Below are positions 3,765 to 8,785 of a stretch of DNA of 64,000 nucleotides, one piece after another. Position numbers and translations under genes: made by a program. This DNA is from Chitinophaga pendula. Lineage in GTDB: Bacteria; Bacteroidota; Bacteroidia; Chitinophagales; Chitinophagaceae. The DNA is taken from positions 5,629,501 to 5,693,500 of the forward strand of contig NZ_CP077769.1 of the NCBI RefSeq assembly GCF_020386615.1, written 5' to 3'. Within the stretch, counting starts at the first letter, position 1. Every line of letters starts with the position of its first letter. The notes beneath the pieces are model-generated. The model was given only the letters and a program-made list of their open reading frames with translations, had not been told where the DNA came from and ran no database searches.

Positions 3765-4358
3765 ATGAAAACAATCATCCATCAGGCATTTAGTCTTGCA
3801 CTATTGTTGTGCATATCCTTATTGCTATCGTGTAAGAAAGAAGTGCGACCTGTGTTGGCGCGACCGGCCTCCCTGTCGGGAGAAAAAAATGGTCCTGTAT
3901 CCGTTAACAGATGGGATCCGAGTCCCGGAGAGTATTATAGAATCAGAAATTCCAGTAGTAATCTTGTCTTACAAGTAAAGTCCTACAATGAAGAGGCGGT
4001 CATACAGGGAACCTGGAACGGCGATGCCGCTCAGTTATGGACGATAGCCCCCATATGGAACAACGGCGGCAGCTACGTGATAACAAACGGCTTTAGCGGT
4101 AAGGTATTAACTGGTTTGAAGGGGCCGAACGGGCCAATCAGTTTTGTGATTCAAGATAATAATGCCTGGAGCATTCACCCGCTACTTCAGGCATGGTGGA
4201 TCCAGGATAGATACAATGGTCGTTTCGTGCTTAAACCCGGATTTCAGTACTATGCGCTGACCAGCCCCTCTAATTCGCCAGGTAATGAGGTGACGATATA
4301 TTCTTATCATCTCAACAGTGAAAACCAGGAGTGGTACATAGAGTTACCGCCATCCTGA
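3765..4358 (+). CDS. Lipoprotein with ricin-type beta-trefoil-like domain
   Basis: 197 residues. A lipoprotein signal peptide with lipobox LLSC places Cys23 as the lipidated residue. The remainder carries repeated aromatic motifs of the QxW type seen in ricin B-like lectin domains (AQLWTI, NAWSI, NQEWYI), spaced as expected for three subdomains of a beta-trefoil. This suggests a carbohydrate-binding surface protein, but the sugar is unknown and no catalytic domain is attached. It stands alone: a terminator follows at 4408, and the next gene has its own upstream region. Confidence 0.65.
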   Translation: MKTIIHQAFSLALLLCISLLLSCKKEVRPVLARPASLSGEKNGPVSVNRWDPSPGEYYRIRNSSSNLVLQVKSYNEEAVIQGTWNGDAAQLWTIAPIWNNGGSYVITNGFSGKVLTGLKGPNGPISFVIQDNNAWSIHPLLQAWWIQDRYNGRFVLKPGFQYYALTSPSNSPGNEVTIYSYHLNSENQEWYIELPPS

Positions 4359-4447: not shown

Positions 4448-4624
4448 CCCACATTCGGACCAGGTATTTCTACCTGGTTGAAGAATGGGCTTTTTTACGG
4501 TATTACTTTTTTCGCCGATGCAGTTATTTTGTATTACAGTAACTAAGCGGCCAGCCAACGAGTCATGGCCATCCATCTATACCAGCATCAGTACACCGCA
4601 ATAATCATCCTAAATCGAATTAAG

Positions 4625-5074
4625 ATGAGCCAGACATCCAATGAGACACAACATAATGAAGTAGGCTTATTCCAGGTAAGTTATCGTATCAGCAGTGGGT
4701 TGATCGGTGCGCCAGTGTTCCATGTGAACCTGACGGTATCGACCGTTACCCAGAAGGTAGGGGGAATAGGTACTATTACGCAAACCAGACATCGTCCGGT
4801 ACAACTAGAAACCAATCTAAGTGGTAACTATTTTGTGCTTCCTATATTGCCTCCGCAGGAGCATTCACTAAGTGTACATTTAACAGGTCTTCCTTTTATC
4901 CCTCATCCATTAAATAACGTAGTACCTCATCCGAATGTGGAGTTGTATATGCGGCTTGACGCCCATTGGCAGGCAGGCATTGCCACATTCAGCTATTTTG
5001 AAGATGGAACCAAGATAACCATTAATGACGCGAAGGTACAGAAGGTTAAATTTGCCGATGTAGTACCCGTATGA
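4625..5074 (+). CDS. DUF1842-like protein upstream of the encapsulin operon
   Basis: 149 residues from the ATG at 4625. An in-frame ATG at 4565 would add 20 residues that look like intergenic translation, so the shorter start is preferred. It has no signal peptide and no membrane segment. The core has alternating beta-strand-like stretches (GLFQVSYRIS, GAPVFHVNLTVST, GIGTITQ) that resemble the uncharacterised DUF1842 family; this is recalled by eye and was not searched. It is on the same strand as the encapsulin gene but 244 bp upstream, with a strong terminator at 5167 between them, so it probably has a separate transcript. Its function is unknown. Confidence 0.6.
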   Translation: MSQTSNETQHNEVGLFQVSYRISSGLIGAPVFHVNLTVSTVTQKVGGIGTITQTRHRPVQLETNLSGNYFVLPILPPQEHSLSVHLTGLPFIPHPLNNVVPHPNVELYMRLDAHWQAGIATFSYFEDGTKITINDAKVQKVKFADVVPV

Positions 5075-5122: not shown

Positions 5123-5166
5123 TGGTTATTTCCAGTTAATTACATTCTCAATGCGACCAATGCTCA

Positions 5167-5203
5167 AGCCATTCGCAGGCTCTCCTGCAGATGGCTTTTT
5201 TTA
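5167..5203 (+). terminator. Strong intrinsic terminator
   Basis: An outer stem AGCCAT/ATGGCT and an inner stem GCAGG/CCTGC are followed by seven T and a further T-rich stretch. It separates the DUF1842-like gene from the encapsulin operon, so the operon needs its own promoter between here and 5319. Confidence 0.75.
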
Positions 5204-5260: not shown

Positions 5261-5283
5261 TAGTCTACCAATTTTATAGACTA
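5261..5283. promoter_or_regulatory. Dyad upstream of the encapsulin gene, possible operator
   Basis: TAGTCTA and TAGACTA form a perfect inverted repeat with a 9-nt AT-rich spacer, 35 bp before the encapsulin ATG. TATATTG at the 3' edge resembles a degenerate -7 box, so the dyad would overlap the promoter. No T tract follows, which argues against a terminator. The regulator is unknown. Confidence 0.4.
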
Positions 5284-5318
5284 TATTGTGTCATAATCTC
5301 ACCTTTATTCATAACACT

Positions 5319-6239
5319 ATGGCACAAACTCCTATCAAACAGACAGCCTTAGGTGATGTAGCTGCGAGGCAGCTGGCCATTGCCACCCGGACGGTACCTC
5401 AATTGTCTACGATTAGTCCTCGCTGGCTAACACATTTGTTGAGCTGGATACCGGTAGAATCGGGTATTTATCGTGTAAATAAGGTAAAGGACGCTAACAG
5501 CGTGCAGGTAGATTGTTCTGCGCGGGATGAGCGGGAACTGCCCTCCACCTATGTTGACTACATTGAAAATCCGCGGGAGTATCTATTGAGCGCGGTCAAT
5601 ACGGTACTGGATGTACATACGCGGGTATCGGACCTTTACAGTAAGCCTTACAACCAGATCAGCGAGCAGTTGCGTCTTACTATTGAGACGATCAAGGAGC
5701 GGCAGGAGAGTGAGTTGATCAATAACCGGGAGTATGGGTTATTGCATAGTATTGCGCCGACGCAGCGTATCAGGACCCGTACGGGAGCTCCTACGCCGGA
5801 TGACTTGGATGAGCTGATCACTAAAGTATGGAAGGAGCCCGGTTTTTTCCTATTACATCCTCTTACGCTTGCGGCATTTGGCCGGGAGTGTACGCGTCGG
5901 GGGGTTCCACCACCTACGGTATCTCTATTTGGTTCACAGTTCATTACCTGGCGGGGTATTCCTCTGATCCCTTCTGACAAGGTGCCTATTGAAGGTAATT
6001 TGTCCAAGATATTGCTGATACGTACCGGTGAGAGTCGTCAGGGTGTGGTGGGGCTGTTCCAGCCAGGTTTGCCGGGGGAGCAGACGCCAGGGCTTTCTGT
6101 GCGTTTTATGGGCATTAATGACAAGGCTATTGCGTCTTACCTGGTATCGCTGTATTGTTCGCTGGCGGTGCTGGTGGATGACGCTATTGCTGTATTGGAT
6201 GATGTTGTAATAGATCATTACCATGAGTACAAATATTAA
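5319..6239 (+). CDS. Family 2A encapsulin shell protein (SrpI-like)
   Basis: 306 residues from the ATG at 5319; an in-frame TTG at 5286 would add only 11 poor residues. Many stretches agree with the SrpI/Family 2 encapsulin shell as I remember it: TALGDVAARQLA, PQLSTISPRWL, YIENPREY, TIETIKERQESELINNREYG, RTRTGAPTPDDLDELI, FGRECTRRGVPPP, GLPGEQTPGLSVRFMGI. The fold is of the HK97 phage capsid type. There is no cyclic-nucleotide-binding insertion, which marks the Family 2A branch, not 2B. The family self-assembles into hollow cytosolic shells that take up cysteine desulfurase, and the sulfur-storing role is known for Family 2A members. The next gene, overlapping by 17 bp, is that cargo enzyme. 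Confidence 0.93.
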   Translation: MAQTPIKQTALGDVAARQLAIATRTVPQLSTISPRWLTHLLSWIPVESGIYRVNKVKDANSVQVDCSARDERELPSTYVDYIENPREYLLSAVNTVLDVHTRVSDLYSKPYNQISEQLRLTIETIKERQESELINNREYGLLHSIAPTQRIRTRTGAPTPDDLDELITKVWKEPGFFLLHPLTLAAFGRECTRRGVPPPTVSLFGSQFITWRGIPLIPSDKVPIEGNLSKILLIRTGESRQGVVGLFQPGLPGEQTPGLSVRFMGINDKAIASYLVSLYCSLAVLVDDAIAVLDDVVIDHYHEYKY

Positions 6240-7893
6240 CCTGGAGGCGCTGGAGCAGCTGGCGAACCAATTTTTCCGTTCGCTACCTGGAGAGCCGGTA
6301 CCTGTGGCCCCTTTACCTGCTGTTGCGCCACCTGAGGACCCGTTATTACATCCAGGTAATGGGGTGAACCTGGCGCATCCGCAGACTAGTTTTCCGGATC
6401 CACATGTATCGGGTAAGGGGGTGAGTCCTGGTTATTCGCAGTCACCGGCACAGCCCGGACTTGCGACGGGGTTACCTGGCCGGATAAACGACGGTATCCC
6501 CGCTTCTATAGCTGGCAGTGGCGTATCGCCGACGCTTCCTTACCAGTATGATCATGTATTAGATCACTTGCTACCCTATGTACGGCAGGAATATATTCCC
6601 TCTCAGCAGGTACCGGTCCAGCCGGGACCTTTTTATTACTTCCTGGCGGGGCAGCAGGCATTGGCCAGGCCACCATTTGACGTGCAGCTGATCAAGCAGG
6701 ATTTTCCTATTCTACAGCAGCGTGTGAATGGGCGGCCATTAACATGGCTCGACAATGCGGCGACCACGCAGAAGCCGAAGCAGGTGATAGACCGGATCAA
6801 ATACTTTTATGAGTATGAGAATTCGAATATTCACCGGGCTGCTCATACGCTGGCAGCCAGGGCTACGGATGCCTATGAGGGGGCACGTAACAAAGTGCAG
6901 CATTTCATCAATGCCCGTTCTCCCGATGAGATTGTATTTGTGCGCGGGGCAACAGAAGCTATCAACCTGGTGGCGAAAAGCTGGGGGGAGCAATTCCTGG
7001 AACCCGGTGATGAGATCATTGTCAGCCACCTGGAGCACCATGCCAATATTGTACCCTGGCAACAGCTGGTACAAAAGAAAGGCCTCAAATTGCAGGTGAT
7101 ACCGGTTGATGAGGATGGGCAGGTGATATTGGAGGCTTATTCCCGTCTGCTGAACAGTAGGACCAAGCTGGTTTCGTTCACACAGGTATCGAATGCGCTG
7201 GGGACGATCACGCCGGCACAGCAGATCGTTTCATTGGCACATGCGGCAGGCGCCAAGGTGCTAGTGGATGGGGCTCAGTCGGTATCGCATATGAAGGTGG
7301 ATGTACAGCAGCTGGATGCTGACTGGTTTGTGTTTTCCGGGCATAAGGTCTTTGGTCCTACTGGTATAGGGGTTTTGTATGGCAAGGAGGCATTATTGAA
7401 CGAGACGGCTCCCTGGCAGGGCGGTGGTAATATGATCTCTGATGTGACTTTTGCGCATACCCAGTATCATGTTGCTCCTGCCAGGTTTGAGGCCGGCACG
7501 GGTAATATTGCCGATGCGGTAGGGCTGGGTGCAGCACTTGATTACGTGGGCAAGATCGGAATAGATCATATCTATCAATATGAGCATGCTTTGTTACAGT
7601 ATGGGACACGCTTGCTGCAGGAGGTACCTGGTCTGCGACTGATCGGAACTGCCAGCGAAAAAGCCAGTGTATTGTCTTTTGTGCTGCGGGGATTCCGTAC
7701 GGAGGAGGTAGGTGAGGCACTTAGTGCGGAAGGTATTGCCGTGCGATCCGGACATCACTGTGCGCAGCCTATCCTGCGAAGGTTCGGTGTGGAAAGTACG
7801 GTAAGGCCCTCGCTGGCTTTCTATAATACCTGTGCGGATATTGATCTGTTGGTACATGTATTACATCAGCTTGTTCAACGAAAACGTTCCTGA
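6223..7893 (+). CDS. Encapsulin cargo cysteine desulfurase (SufS-like) with long N-terminal extension
   Basis: 556 residues. Residues ~150-556 are a class V PLP aminotransferase-fold desulfurase of the SufS/CsdA type. The cofactor His is in HLEHHAN, the PLP Asp in LVDGAQS, the Schiff-base Lys375 in FSGHKVFGPTG, and the catalytic Cys513 in RSGHHCAQP. It removes sulfur from L-cysteine, giving alanine and an enzyme persulfide. Residues 1-150 are not part of the enzyme fold: they are rich in Pro and Gly, low in complexity, and hold two short helical candidates (EALEQLANQFFRSLPG near the start and YDHVLDHLLPYVRQEY near 110). Such an extension is the cargo-loading region of Family 2A desulfurases. 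The gene overlaps the shell gene by 17 bp and the next gene by 1 bp, so the products are probably made in step. Confidence 0.93.
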   Translation: MSTNINLEALEQLANQFFRSLPGEPVPVAPLPAVAPPEDPLLHPGNGVNLAHPQTSFPDPHVSGKGVSPGYSQSPAQPGLATGLPGRINDGIPASIAGSGVSPTLPYQYDHVLDHLLPYVRQEYIPSQQVPVQPGPFYYFLAGQQALARPPFDVQLIKQDFPILQQRVNGRPLTWLDNAATTQKPKQVIDRIKYFYEYENSNIHRAAHTLAARATDAYEGARNKVQHFINARSPDEIVFVRGATEAINLVAKSWGEQFLEPGDEIIVSHLEHHANIVPWQQLVQKKGLKLQVIPVDEDGQVILEAYSRLLNSRTKLVSFTQVSNALGTITPAQQIVSLAHAAGAKVLVDGAQSVSHMKVDVQQLDADWFVFSGHKVFGPTGIGVLYGKEALLNETAPWQGGGNMISDVTFAHTQYHVAPARFEAGTGNIADAVGLGAALDYVGKIGIDHIYQYEHALLQYGTRLLQEVPGLRLIGTASEKASVLSFVLRGFRTEEVGEALSAEGIAVRSGHHCAQPILRRFGVESTVRPSLAFYNTCADIDLLVHVLHQLVQRKRS

Positions 7894-8729
7894 TGGAAAA
7901 TGAGCCCCTACACGCGTTCATTGCGTTGTTGCATAAAAATCACCGGGCGGAGTGGGAAGCCAGTCCCTCTGCGCAGGATGCGATCCGGTGGCTGACCAAC
8001 CTTTACCAGTTCCTGTTTCCTAATGATCATTTGAATAAACAATCGCAGTATATTGGTATACTGAAGAAGAACCAGATAGACCTTATCAACCTGTTATTGA
8101 GTTATCTGGACCCCAAGGATATCGATATAGAGCAGATAGTGACTGATTTCTACAGTTCACTGGCAACTATATACGAACAGCTGCGGCAGGATGCATCCAA
8201 GACTTATGCATGTGATCCTGCTGCTACGAGTATACAGGAAGTGATTGTTTCTTATCCGGGTTTTTATGCTATTGCGGTGTATCGCATTGCTCACCGGTTA
8301 TCGCAGCTACATATTCCGATATTGCCCCGTATACTCAGCGAGCATGCGCACGGTAAGACGGGGGTGGATATTCATCCTGATGCCAGTATAGCGGCGCCAT
8401 TCTTTATTGATCATGGTACGGGTATAGTCATAGGGGCGACGGCGGTGATCGGCCGTAACGTGAGTATCTACCAAGGCGTTACGCTAGGAGCTGCTCAGGT
8501 CAGTAAGGAGTTATCTGCTGTAAAGCGGCATCCTACGGTGGAAGACGATGTGATCATCTATGCCAGGACCACCATCCTGGGAGGCAATACGGTAATCGGG
8601 CATCACAGTATTATTGGCGGCAGTGTGTTTCTCACGAAGAGCGTGGCGCCTTATTCCCATGTATTTAATACTCATCAACTGCGTATAGATGTAAAACATC
8701 AGGCGATAAGAGGAGATGAAGGACATTGA
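7893..8729 (+). CDS. Serine O-acetyltransferase (EpsC-type) of the encapsulin operon
   Basis: 278 residues. An alpha-helical N-terminal half (about 1-150) precedes a left-handed beta-helix of hexapeptide repeats (about 160-255). The catalytic Asp-His pair is in FIDHGTG, and YQGVTLGA is typical of the family. It acetylates L-serine with acetyl-CoA to O-acetylserine, the direct precursor of cysteine. The usual Glu in the VIGETA segment is Ala here (VIGATAVIG). The start codon overlaps the desulfurase stop in TGATG, so expression is coupled. In this setting it would supply cysteine, the substrate of the encapsulated desulfurase. O-acetylserine sulfhydrylase is not encoded nearby. Confidence 0.88.
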   Translation: MENEPLHAFIALLHKNHRAEWEASPSAQDAIRWLTNLYQFLFPNDHLNKQSQYIGILKKNQIDLINLLLSYLDPKDIDIEQIVTDFYSSLATIYEQLRQDASKTYACDPAATSIQEVIVSYPGFYAIAVYRIAHRLSQLHIPILPRILSEHAHGKTGVDIHPDASIAAPFFIDHGTGIVIGATAVIGRNVSIYQGVTLGAAQVSKELSAVKRHPTVEDDVIIYARTTILGGNTVIGHHSIIGGSVFLTKSVAPYSHVFNTHQLRIDVKHQAIRGDEGH

Positions 8730-8750
8730 GTTTATTATTTACTAAGGGCG

Positions 8751-8785
8751 AGGCCCGGCGGTGTCAGTACTGCCGGGCCTTGTTG
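8751..8785 (+). terminator. Terminator of the encapsulin operon
   Basis: AGGCCCGGC and GCCGGGCCT pair around a 12-nt loop, followed by TGTTGTCTTT. It sits between convergent genes and may also serve the M23 gene on the other strand. Confidence 0.65.

Follow-up and report, generated by a model that had tools for sequence, protein, structure and literature searches.

Does the genome of Chitinophaga pendula encode an encapsulin nanocompartment that handles cysteine sulfur, and what would set its expression? Three overlapping genes raise this question; they lie in a stretch of 64,000 nucleotides (contig NZ_CP077769.1, positions 5,629,501 to 5,693,500; hereafter the window, whose numbering is used unless stated otherwise) of a single-contig genome of 7.66 Mb. 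An earlier note on this DNA had described genes for a Family 2A encapsulin shell, a SufS-like desulfurase with a long low-complexity N-terminus and an EpsC-type serine O-acetyltransferase, overlapping by 17 and 1 bp. The positions of the open reading frames bear out this layout: the genes for the shell protein (ENC; 5319..6239, 306 aa), the cysteine desulfurase (CD; 6223..7893, 556 aa) and the serine O-acetyltransferase (SAT; 7893..8729, 278 aa) all lie on the forward strand, with 17 bp shared between ENC and CD and 1 bp between CD and SAT, and they look like a single transcription unit. ENC starts with an ATG at 5319; the mechanically called open reading frame opens earlier, with a TTG at 5286. 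The identification of the locus as a Family 2A shell, desulfurase cargo and serine acetyltransferase is supported. We further consider it probable that this desulfurase encapsulin operon is one expression unit tied to sulfur status through an upstream operator resembling those of cys genes.

ENC scored 527 bits against NF041162, the curated Family 2A model (cut-off 380), and 354.3 bits against the SrpI-like family PF19307 (cut-off 22.8), its sole Pfam match. The Family 2B model was also passed (431.7 bits, cut-off 400), through the shell part alone (profile positions 210–449 of 450), and the Pfam scan detected no cNMP-binding domain, the mark of Family 2B, in the 306 residues of ENC. The solved shell 8t6r, which we take to be that of the sulfur-storing desulfurase encapsulin (Benisch, Andreas and Giessen 2024), is identical to ENC at 224 of 301 residues. 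SrpI (6x8m) matched with 516.5 bits and is identical at 227 of 300 aligned residues; because this 76% identity extends over 300 residues, it is near certain that the two proteins share the same HK97 fold. Two SrpI residues reported to lie close to cargo density, F262 and Y273, are kept in ENC as F263 and Y274 (Nichols et al. 2021, PMC8049743). A phage capsid in place of an encapsulin was ruled out, since the curated encapsulin models were passed and, among the 80 loci kept for comparison (the best 80 of 447 found in species genomes), the gene immediately after ENC is CD in 77.

The predicted cargo, CD, passed both the dedicated cargo model NF041166 (867.5 bits, cut-off 800) and the SufS model TIGR01979 (557.4 bits, cut-off 475.1). 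Its best solved match, 8kg1 (581.5 bits), covers residues 151–551, and the protein contains SGHK at residue 372 and RSGHHC with Cys513; together with the DHG and RHPT motifs of SAT, these are presumably catalytic. The first 150 residues are dominated by a few residue types (25 P, 14 G, 13 A, 12 Q and 11 S), in agreement with the long low-complexity N-terminus described previously. Within this segment, LEQLANQFF (residues 10–18; 6250..6276, forward strand) resembles LARLANEFFS, and FYYFL (residues 137–141; 6631..6645, forward strand) resembles AASPYYFLDG, both published motifs of the desulfurase N-terminus (PMC8049743). The LEQLANQFF-type pattern was found in 81 of 90 CDs and the FYYFL-type pattern in 13 of 90, the window CD among them. 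The highest SufS score in the genome (589.3 bits) belongs to a separate SufS encoded elsewhere, the sole other protein over the cut-off.

SAT was matched by a solved serine O-acetyltransferase (179.4 bits) and carries DHG at residue 173 and RHPT at residue 212. Its best curated match was the cysE model. The other SAT of the genome (271 aa), which is followed by a PALP-family, cysK-like gene, scored 151.3 bits against that model, also under the cut-off, and the next match reached only 42.7 bits. The matches to solved and curated enzymes, along with the two motifs, support a serine acetyltransferase as the third gene; the narrower EpsC-type label of the earlier note is not strictly upheld, the score being 139.8 bits against a cut-off of 150. 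Two results weigh against the overall reading of the operon: SAT stays under both curated cut-offs (149.9 bits for cysE, cut-off 210.65), and the structure predicted for ENC from 17 near-identical sequences was of low confidence (mean pLDDT 32.5, pTM 0.30).

Systems of this kind are well described and known in the phylum, and the association of shell, cargo and SAT is already in print. A survey (Andreas and Giessen 2021, PMC8346489) counted 1281 Family 2A desulfurase operons, 111 of them in Bacteroidetes, found serine O-acetyltransferases and rhodaneses to be the most enriched accessory genes, and includes operons with the same three gene types as the window. In the SrpI-CyD system of Synechococcus elongatus, the desulfurase is loaded via its N-terminus and has an approximately sevenfold higher kcat in the shell, and the system is induced under sulfate deprivation (Nichols et al. 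2021, PMC8049743). The window operon resembles it in the Family 2A shell (76% over 300 residues), the adjacent SufS-type desulfurase, the disordered N-terminus (judged from composition in the window) and the related motifs; it differs in the serine acetyltransferase gene overlapping CD and in a desulfurase N-terminus of approximately 150 residues, compared to 225 in CyD (PMC8049743). Sulfur storage has been named for the desulfurase encapsulin class (PMC10960027), and the sulfur-storing desulfurase encapsulin (Benisch, Andreas and Giessen 2024, Sci. Adv.) belongs, by title and citation, to the same class as the window system. In the open-licence literature, nothing pairing encapsulin with Chitinophaga was found, and the exact phrase "serine acetyltransferase" with encapsulin and desulfurase gave no match, the survey writing "serine O-acetyltransferase". 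The accessible part of that survey describes no operator, in contrast to the one predicted in the window (PMC8346489). This predicted sulfur operator is the addition made here, and a modest one.

The predicted operator is the palindrome TAGTCTACCAATTTTATAGACTA (inverted repeat I4; 5261..5283, no strand assigned), which has perfect 7-nt arms separated by 9 nt, takes the form TAGTCTA-N9-TAGACTA and lies 35 bp before the ENC ATG. With up to three mismatches allowed, it matched once in the window and in none of 100 shuffles, and five places were found in the genome compared to none for the pattern read backwards. One of these copies, with 3 mismatches in 23, lies approximately 54 bp before the second SAT gene and its cysK-like neighbor (cysE-cysK); another lies approximately 31 bp before a TonB-type receptor gene (PF00593), and another approximately 61 bp before a gene that we take to encode a sterol-desaturase-like hydroxylase, all distances being measured to mechanically called starts. 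A like search of a second Chitinophaga genome with the three-gene operon (G020) gave four places and none in the control: before ENC, before a same-looking hydroxylase gene, before a same-looking TonB receptor gene, and between a further TonB-like gene and a desaturase-like gene, as judged by eye. More widely, TCTA-N9-TAGA lies upstream of ENC in 16 of 73 Bacteroidota loci other than the window (shuffled mean 0.25). When spacings from 5 to 19 were compared, 9 accounted for these 16 loci, spacings of 5, 18 and 19 for three, four and two, and the rest for none.

Sulfate-assimilation genes of the same genome carry a related site. Two strong PF01507 matches, presumably cysH and cysD, sit just behind an Rrf2 gene (PF02082, 127 bits; genome coordinate 4673741, with the cysH-type match at 4674765), and AAGTCTATCTTTTTTATAGAGTT, between Rrf2 and cysH, differs from the window 23-mer at six positions. 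We observed in this region (L139; genome coordinates 4670500-4688000) that the Rrf2 regulator carries four cysteine residues in the second half of the protein and stands directly before cysH-cysD with the palindromic site between, making it a candidate sulfur regulator. Rrf2-family proteins of the CymR type reportedly control cysteine genes; the likeness here lies in the Rrf2 gene beside cysteine or sulfate genes, and the differences lie in the four cysteines and apparently in the site, the CymR palindrome seeming distinct from that of the window. Among the open-licence titles listed, none concerned an Rrf2/sulfate-assimilation regulon in Bacteroidetes, which is weak evidence of absence, and nothing in that literature matched Rrf2, sulfate assimilation and Flavobacterium together.

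Upstream of cysH in the 30 of 36 genomes of the genus that were covered, each search listing at most 30 loci, the best match to the window 23-mer was a relative of the AAGTCTATCTTTTTTATAGAGTT site. Exact TCTA-N9-TAGA occurred in eight of these 30 (shuffled mean 0.1), and the other spacings between 5 and 15 yielded none. Identity among the 30 sites was 89%, compared to 36% for the left flanks and 67% for the right flanks (26 usable), a comparison that favors the sites since they were chosen as best matches. Using only the distinct cysH sites of the genus, 10 in number, we built a symmetric matrix and scored it against 1820 dinucleotide shuffles. Applied to 91 ENC-upstream regions, the matrix placed 31 over the 99th percentile of the shuffles where 0.9 were expected; five of the regions were second copies of a genome, all under the threshold. 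The window site scored 22.4 bits and that of G020 27.4 bits, compared to 24.2–28.9 bits for the cysH sites themselves and a shuffle maximum of 16.4 bits. Because a matrix made from cysH sites alone ranks the window site above all 1820 shuffles, co-regulation of the operon with sulfate assimilation appears likely.

The palindrome could instead be a chance or unrelated element, leaving the operon outside any sulfur regulon, and a number of observations speak for this and against a sulfur operator. The site is missing from all ten of the remaining Chitinophaga shell loci. The genus cysH sites carry 5 to 9 mismatches to the window 23-mer, most of them falling in the spacer and right arm, and the weakest of the five genome places is nearly 400 bp before the next gene, which encodes a redoxin. 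A degenerate pattern with one mismatch was not clean, giving 16 match rows in the genome compared to nine in the control. Outside the genus, strong PF01507 matches occur in 25 of 26 genomes with the shell. Of 30 cysH or cysD loci covered there, only one (Pseudarcicella) passes the matrix within 250 bp; a relaxed pattern, used with no shuffled control, found upstream sites in four of the 30 (Niastella with three, Chryseobacterium, a Chitinophagaceae metagenome-assembled genome and one Mucilaginibacter). In 12 Mucilaginibacter-type stretches, the operon opens with what we take to be a sulfite-reductase-like gene, which by eye stands behind a presumed Rrf2-like gene in 10 of the 12; the relaxed pattern gave no site between these two genes in the 12 stretches. 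Alignment of the stretches shows a block near TTCTACCATTTCCCTATACTA in most of them, and this block looks similar to ENC sites of Mucilaginibacter such as AATTCTACTATTTCCATAGACTT.

A link between SAT and the site also failed to hold. In a plain table, the site was present in 23 of 36 regions with SAT and in 8 of 48 without (Fisher p = 1.2e-5). This table left out seven rows labelled proteobacterial, entered five genomes twice and over-represented Mucilaginibacter; several of its SAT-less rows are contigs that end after CD or ENC, and one locus (L085) was counted as SAT-bearing with its SAT elsewhere. Five well-supported independent pairs on the tree gave a median sign-test p of 1, and SAT and operator were dropped as linked traits. 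We do not claim this link because of the duplicates, short contigs and sampling bias and because no trend survived correction for kinship.

Set against a chance origin are the absence of matches to the backward control in two genomes, the strong preference for a spacing of 9 before both ENC and cysH, and the score of the window site above every shuffle. We regard an unrelated palindrome as doubtful, though it carries real weight, and retain the predicted sulfur operator. A broader proposal, on which we see the balance as even, is that part of the Bacteroidota desulfurase encapsulins belongs to a cysteine/sulfate regulon under the cysH-adjacent Rrf2 protein, acting via TCTAY-N7-RTAGA, in which shell, desulfurase and dedicated SAT would be switched with cysE-cysK, cysH-cysD and TonB-type receptors.

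Similar sites were seen before other genes. The palindrome precedes a sterol-desaturase-like gene in two Chitinophaga species (L146, 3260-3282; L234, 1501-1523); since kin of Chitinophaga make sulfonolipids, a tie between lipid hydroxylation and sulfur supply is conceivable. Sites also stand just before genes for TonB-dependent receptors (L148, 1634-1656; L235, 1501-1523; L144, approximately 4956-4974; PF00593 for L144 and L148), possibly importers of organic sulfur compounds. Matches to the degenerate pattern lie before genes of the carbonic anhydrase family (PF00484; L145, 2806-2824), the YitT family (PF02588; L140, 4980-4998) and the AhpC/TSA family (PF00578; L143, 1926-1944), and may be due to chance because that pattern is not clean.

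We also compared gene order and kinship among the 80 loci. The 17-bp overlap of ENC and CD is the commonest arrangement (35 of 77 loci); of the three loci where CD does not directly follow ENC, two (L048 and L074) end shortly after ENC, and in the third (L114) the overlap of the reading frames exceeds the adjacency rule. The order ENC-CD-SAT occurs in 34 loci, SAT-ENC-CD in six, all from genomes labelled Proteobacteria, and ENC-CD with no adjacent SAT in 34, while three have less than 900 bp after CD; In all, 40 of the 80 loci have SAT next to the pair. The three-gene order proved to be patchily conserved. The shell is present in named loci of several other Chitinophagaceae and in 12 of 36 Chitinophaga genomes; of these 12, two have SAT (the window and G020), nine lack it, and the contig of one (G018) stops 579 bp past CD. 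No shell was found in 23 sampled genomes from other genera of the same order.

Among the loci kept, the closest named relative of the window shell is that of Chitinophaga sp. SYP-B3965 (93%). A quick tree of shell and CD domain (82 rows) joins the two with an SH-aLRT of 98, away from the main Chitinophaga clade. The window operon as the usual version of the genus was rejected by holding the window pair with nine main-clade Chitinophaga rows (p-AU = 0.009), a test made on a quick tree, with a group named after the tree was seen and with the Chitinophaga-like L036, L108 and L116 left out. Either horizontal transfer or the loss of an old second version could have produced this placement. In the same tree, the encapsulin and desulfurase of a contig labelled Beijerinckiaceae (L045) fall within a Puia/Sphingobacteriales group, and this contig is probably mis-binned.

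Elements flanking the operon were also recorded. A terminator-like hairpin with a 17-pair stem lies 3' of SAT (8747..8784, forward strand); the scan found nine hairpin sites of this kind in the stretch scanned, compared to a shuffled mean of 4.0. Upstream, an inverted repeat followed by a T run (I1; 5166..5197, forward strand; 14-nt arms, 86% complementary) may be the transcript end of the upstream gene and is absent from the list of the terminator scan. Further upstream are genes for a DUF1842 protein (4565-5074; PF08896, 80.9 bits) and a ricin-type lectin-like protein (3765-4358; PF14200, 48.8 bits), neither with any sign of operon membership.

On the reading of a sulfur-regulated desulfurase encapsulin, ENC would self-assemble, as its 76% identity to SrpI suggests, and the disordered N-terminus of CD would bring the enzyme inside, in keeping with its motif and with published loading tests in another species. 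Cysteine would enter the shell, where CD would remove its sulfur and leave alanine; we infer from published work on homologues that the sulfur may then be stored in the shell as persulfide or elemental sulfur. Cytosolic SAT would make O-acetylserine, which cysteine synthase would turn into cysteine, the substrate of CD. This role in cysteine supply has some support, given its fit with the survey of such operons (PMC8346489) and the operator resemblance. A regulator that senses sulfur, in all likelihood the Rrf2 protein beside cysH, would recognize the operator, and sulfur status would set expression of shell, CD and SAT jointly with the cysteine genes.

The compartment might serve transfer rather than storage, the shell shielding the CD persulfide and passing it to a chosen acceptor, for instance one serving iron-sulfur clusters, with little sulfur accumulating. 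In the survey, a co-regulated rhodanese is put forward as a possible acceptor of sulfur at the shell (PMC8346489), and the SrpI study considers a SufE-like role for the shell (PMC8049743). However, the three-gene unit contains no acceptor gene, the top-scoring SufS of the genome (589 bits) is a separate protein encoded elsewhere, and no rhodanese was seen by eye beside the pair in the two-gene forms of the genus; we regard a transfer device as unlikely. A brake or overflow valve on cysteine, in which the shell segregates a cysteine-degrading enzyme or disposes of excess, SAT refills the pool and the operon answers plenty rather than scarcity, appears quite unlikely. The SrpI study considers, as one option, that the desulfurase is sequestered to protect the cysteine of the cytosol, and control by the predicted operator could go in either direction, but SrpI and its desulfurase rise when sulfate is withdrawn (PMC8049743), and here a cysteine-making gene shares a unit with shell and CD. 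That SAT is a second cargo making O-acetylserine within the shell is very improbable: it does come after CD in 34 of 80 loci, but it is disfavored because no N-terminal extension like that of CD was seen in the SATs, the 37 encapsulin-linked SATs measured (with G020 counted twice and L085 having its SAT outside the operon with CD) spanning 270–287 aa compared to 271 aa for the other SAT of the genome.

Why cells enclose a cysteine-consuming enzyme in a shell is still argued, with a store, a transfer device and a brake as the candidate answers. Without the operator, the window would hold an ordinary, previously described system. Should the operator prove real, these soil bacteria would switch the compartment together with their cysteine and sulfate genes, and which way this switch acts would distinguish a store for times of scarcity from a means of disposing of excess.

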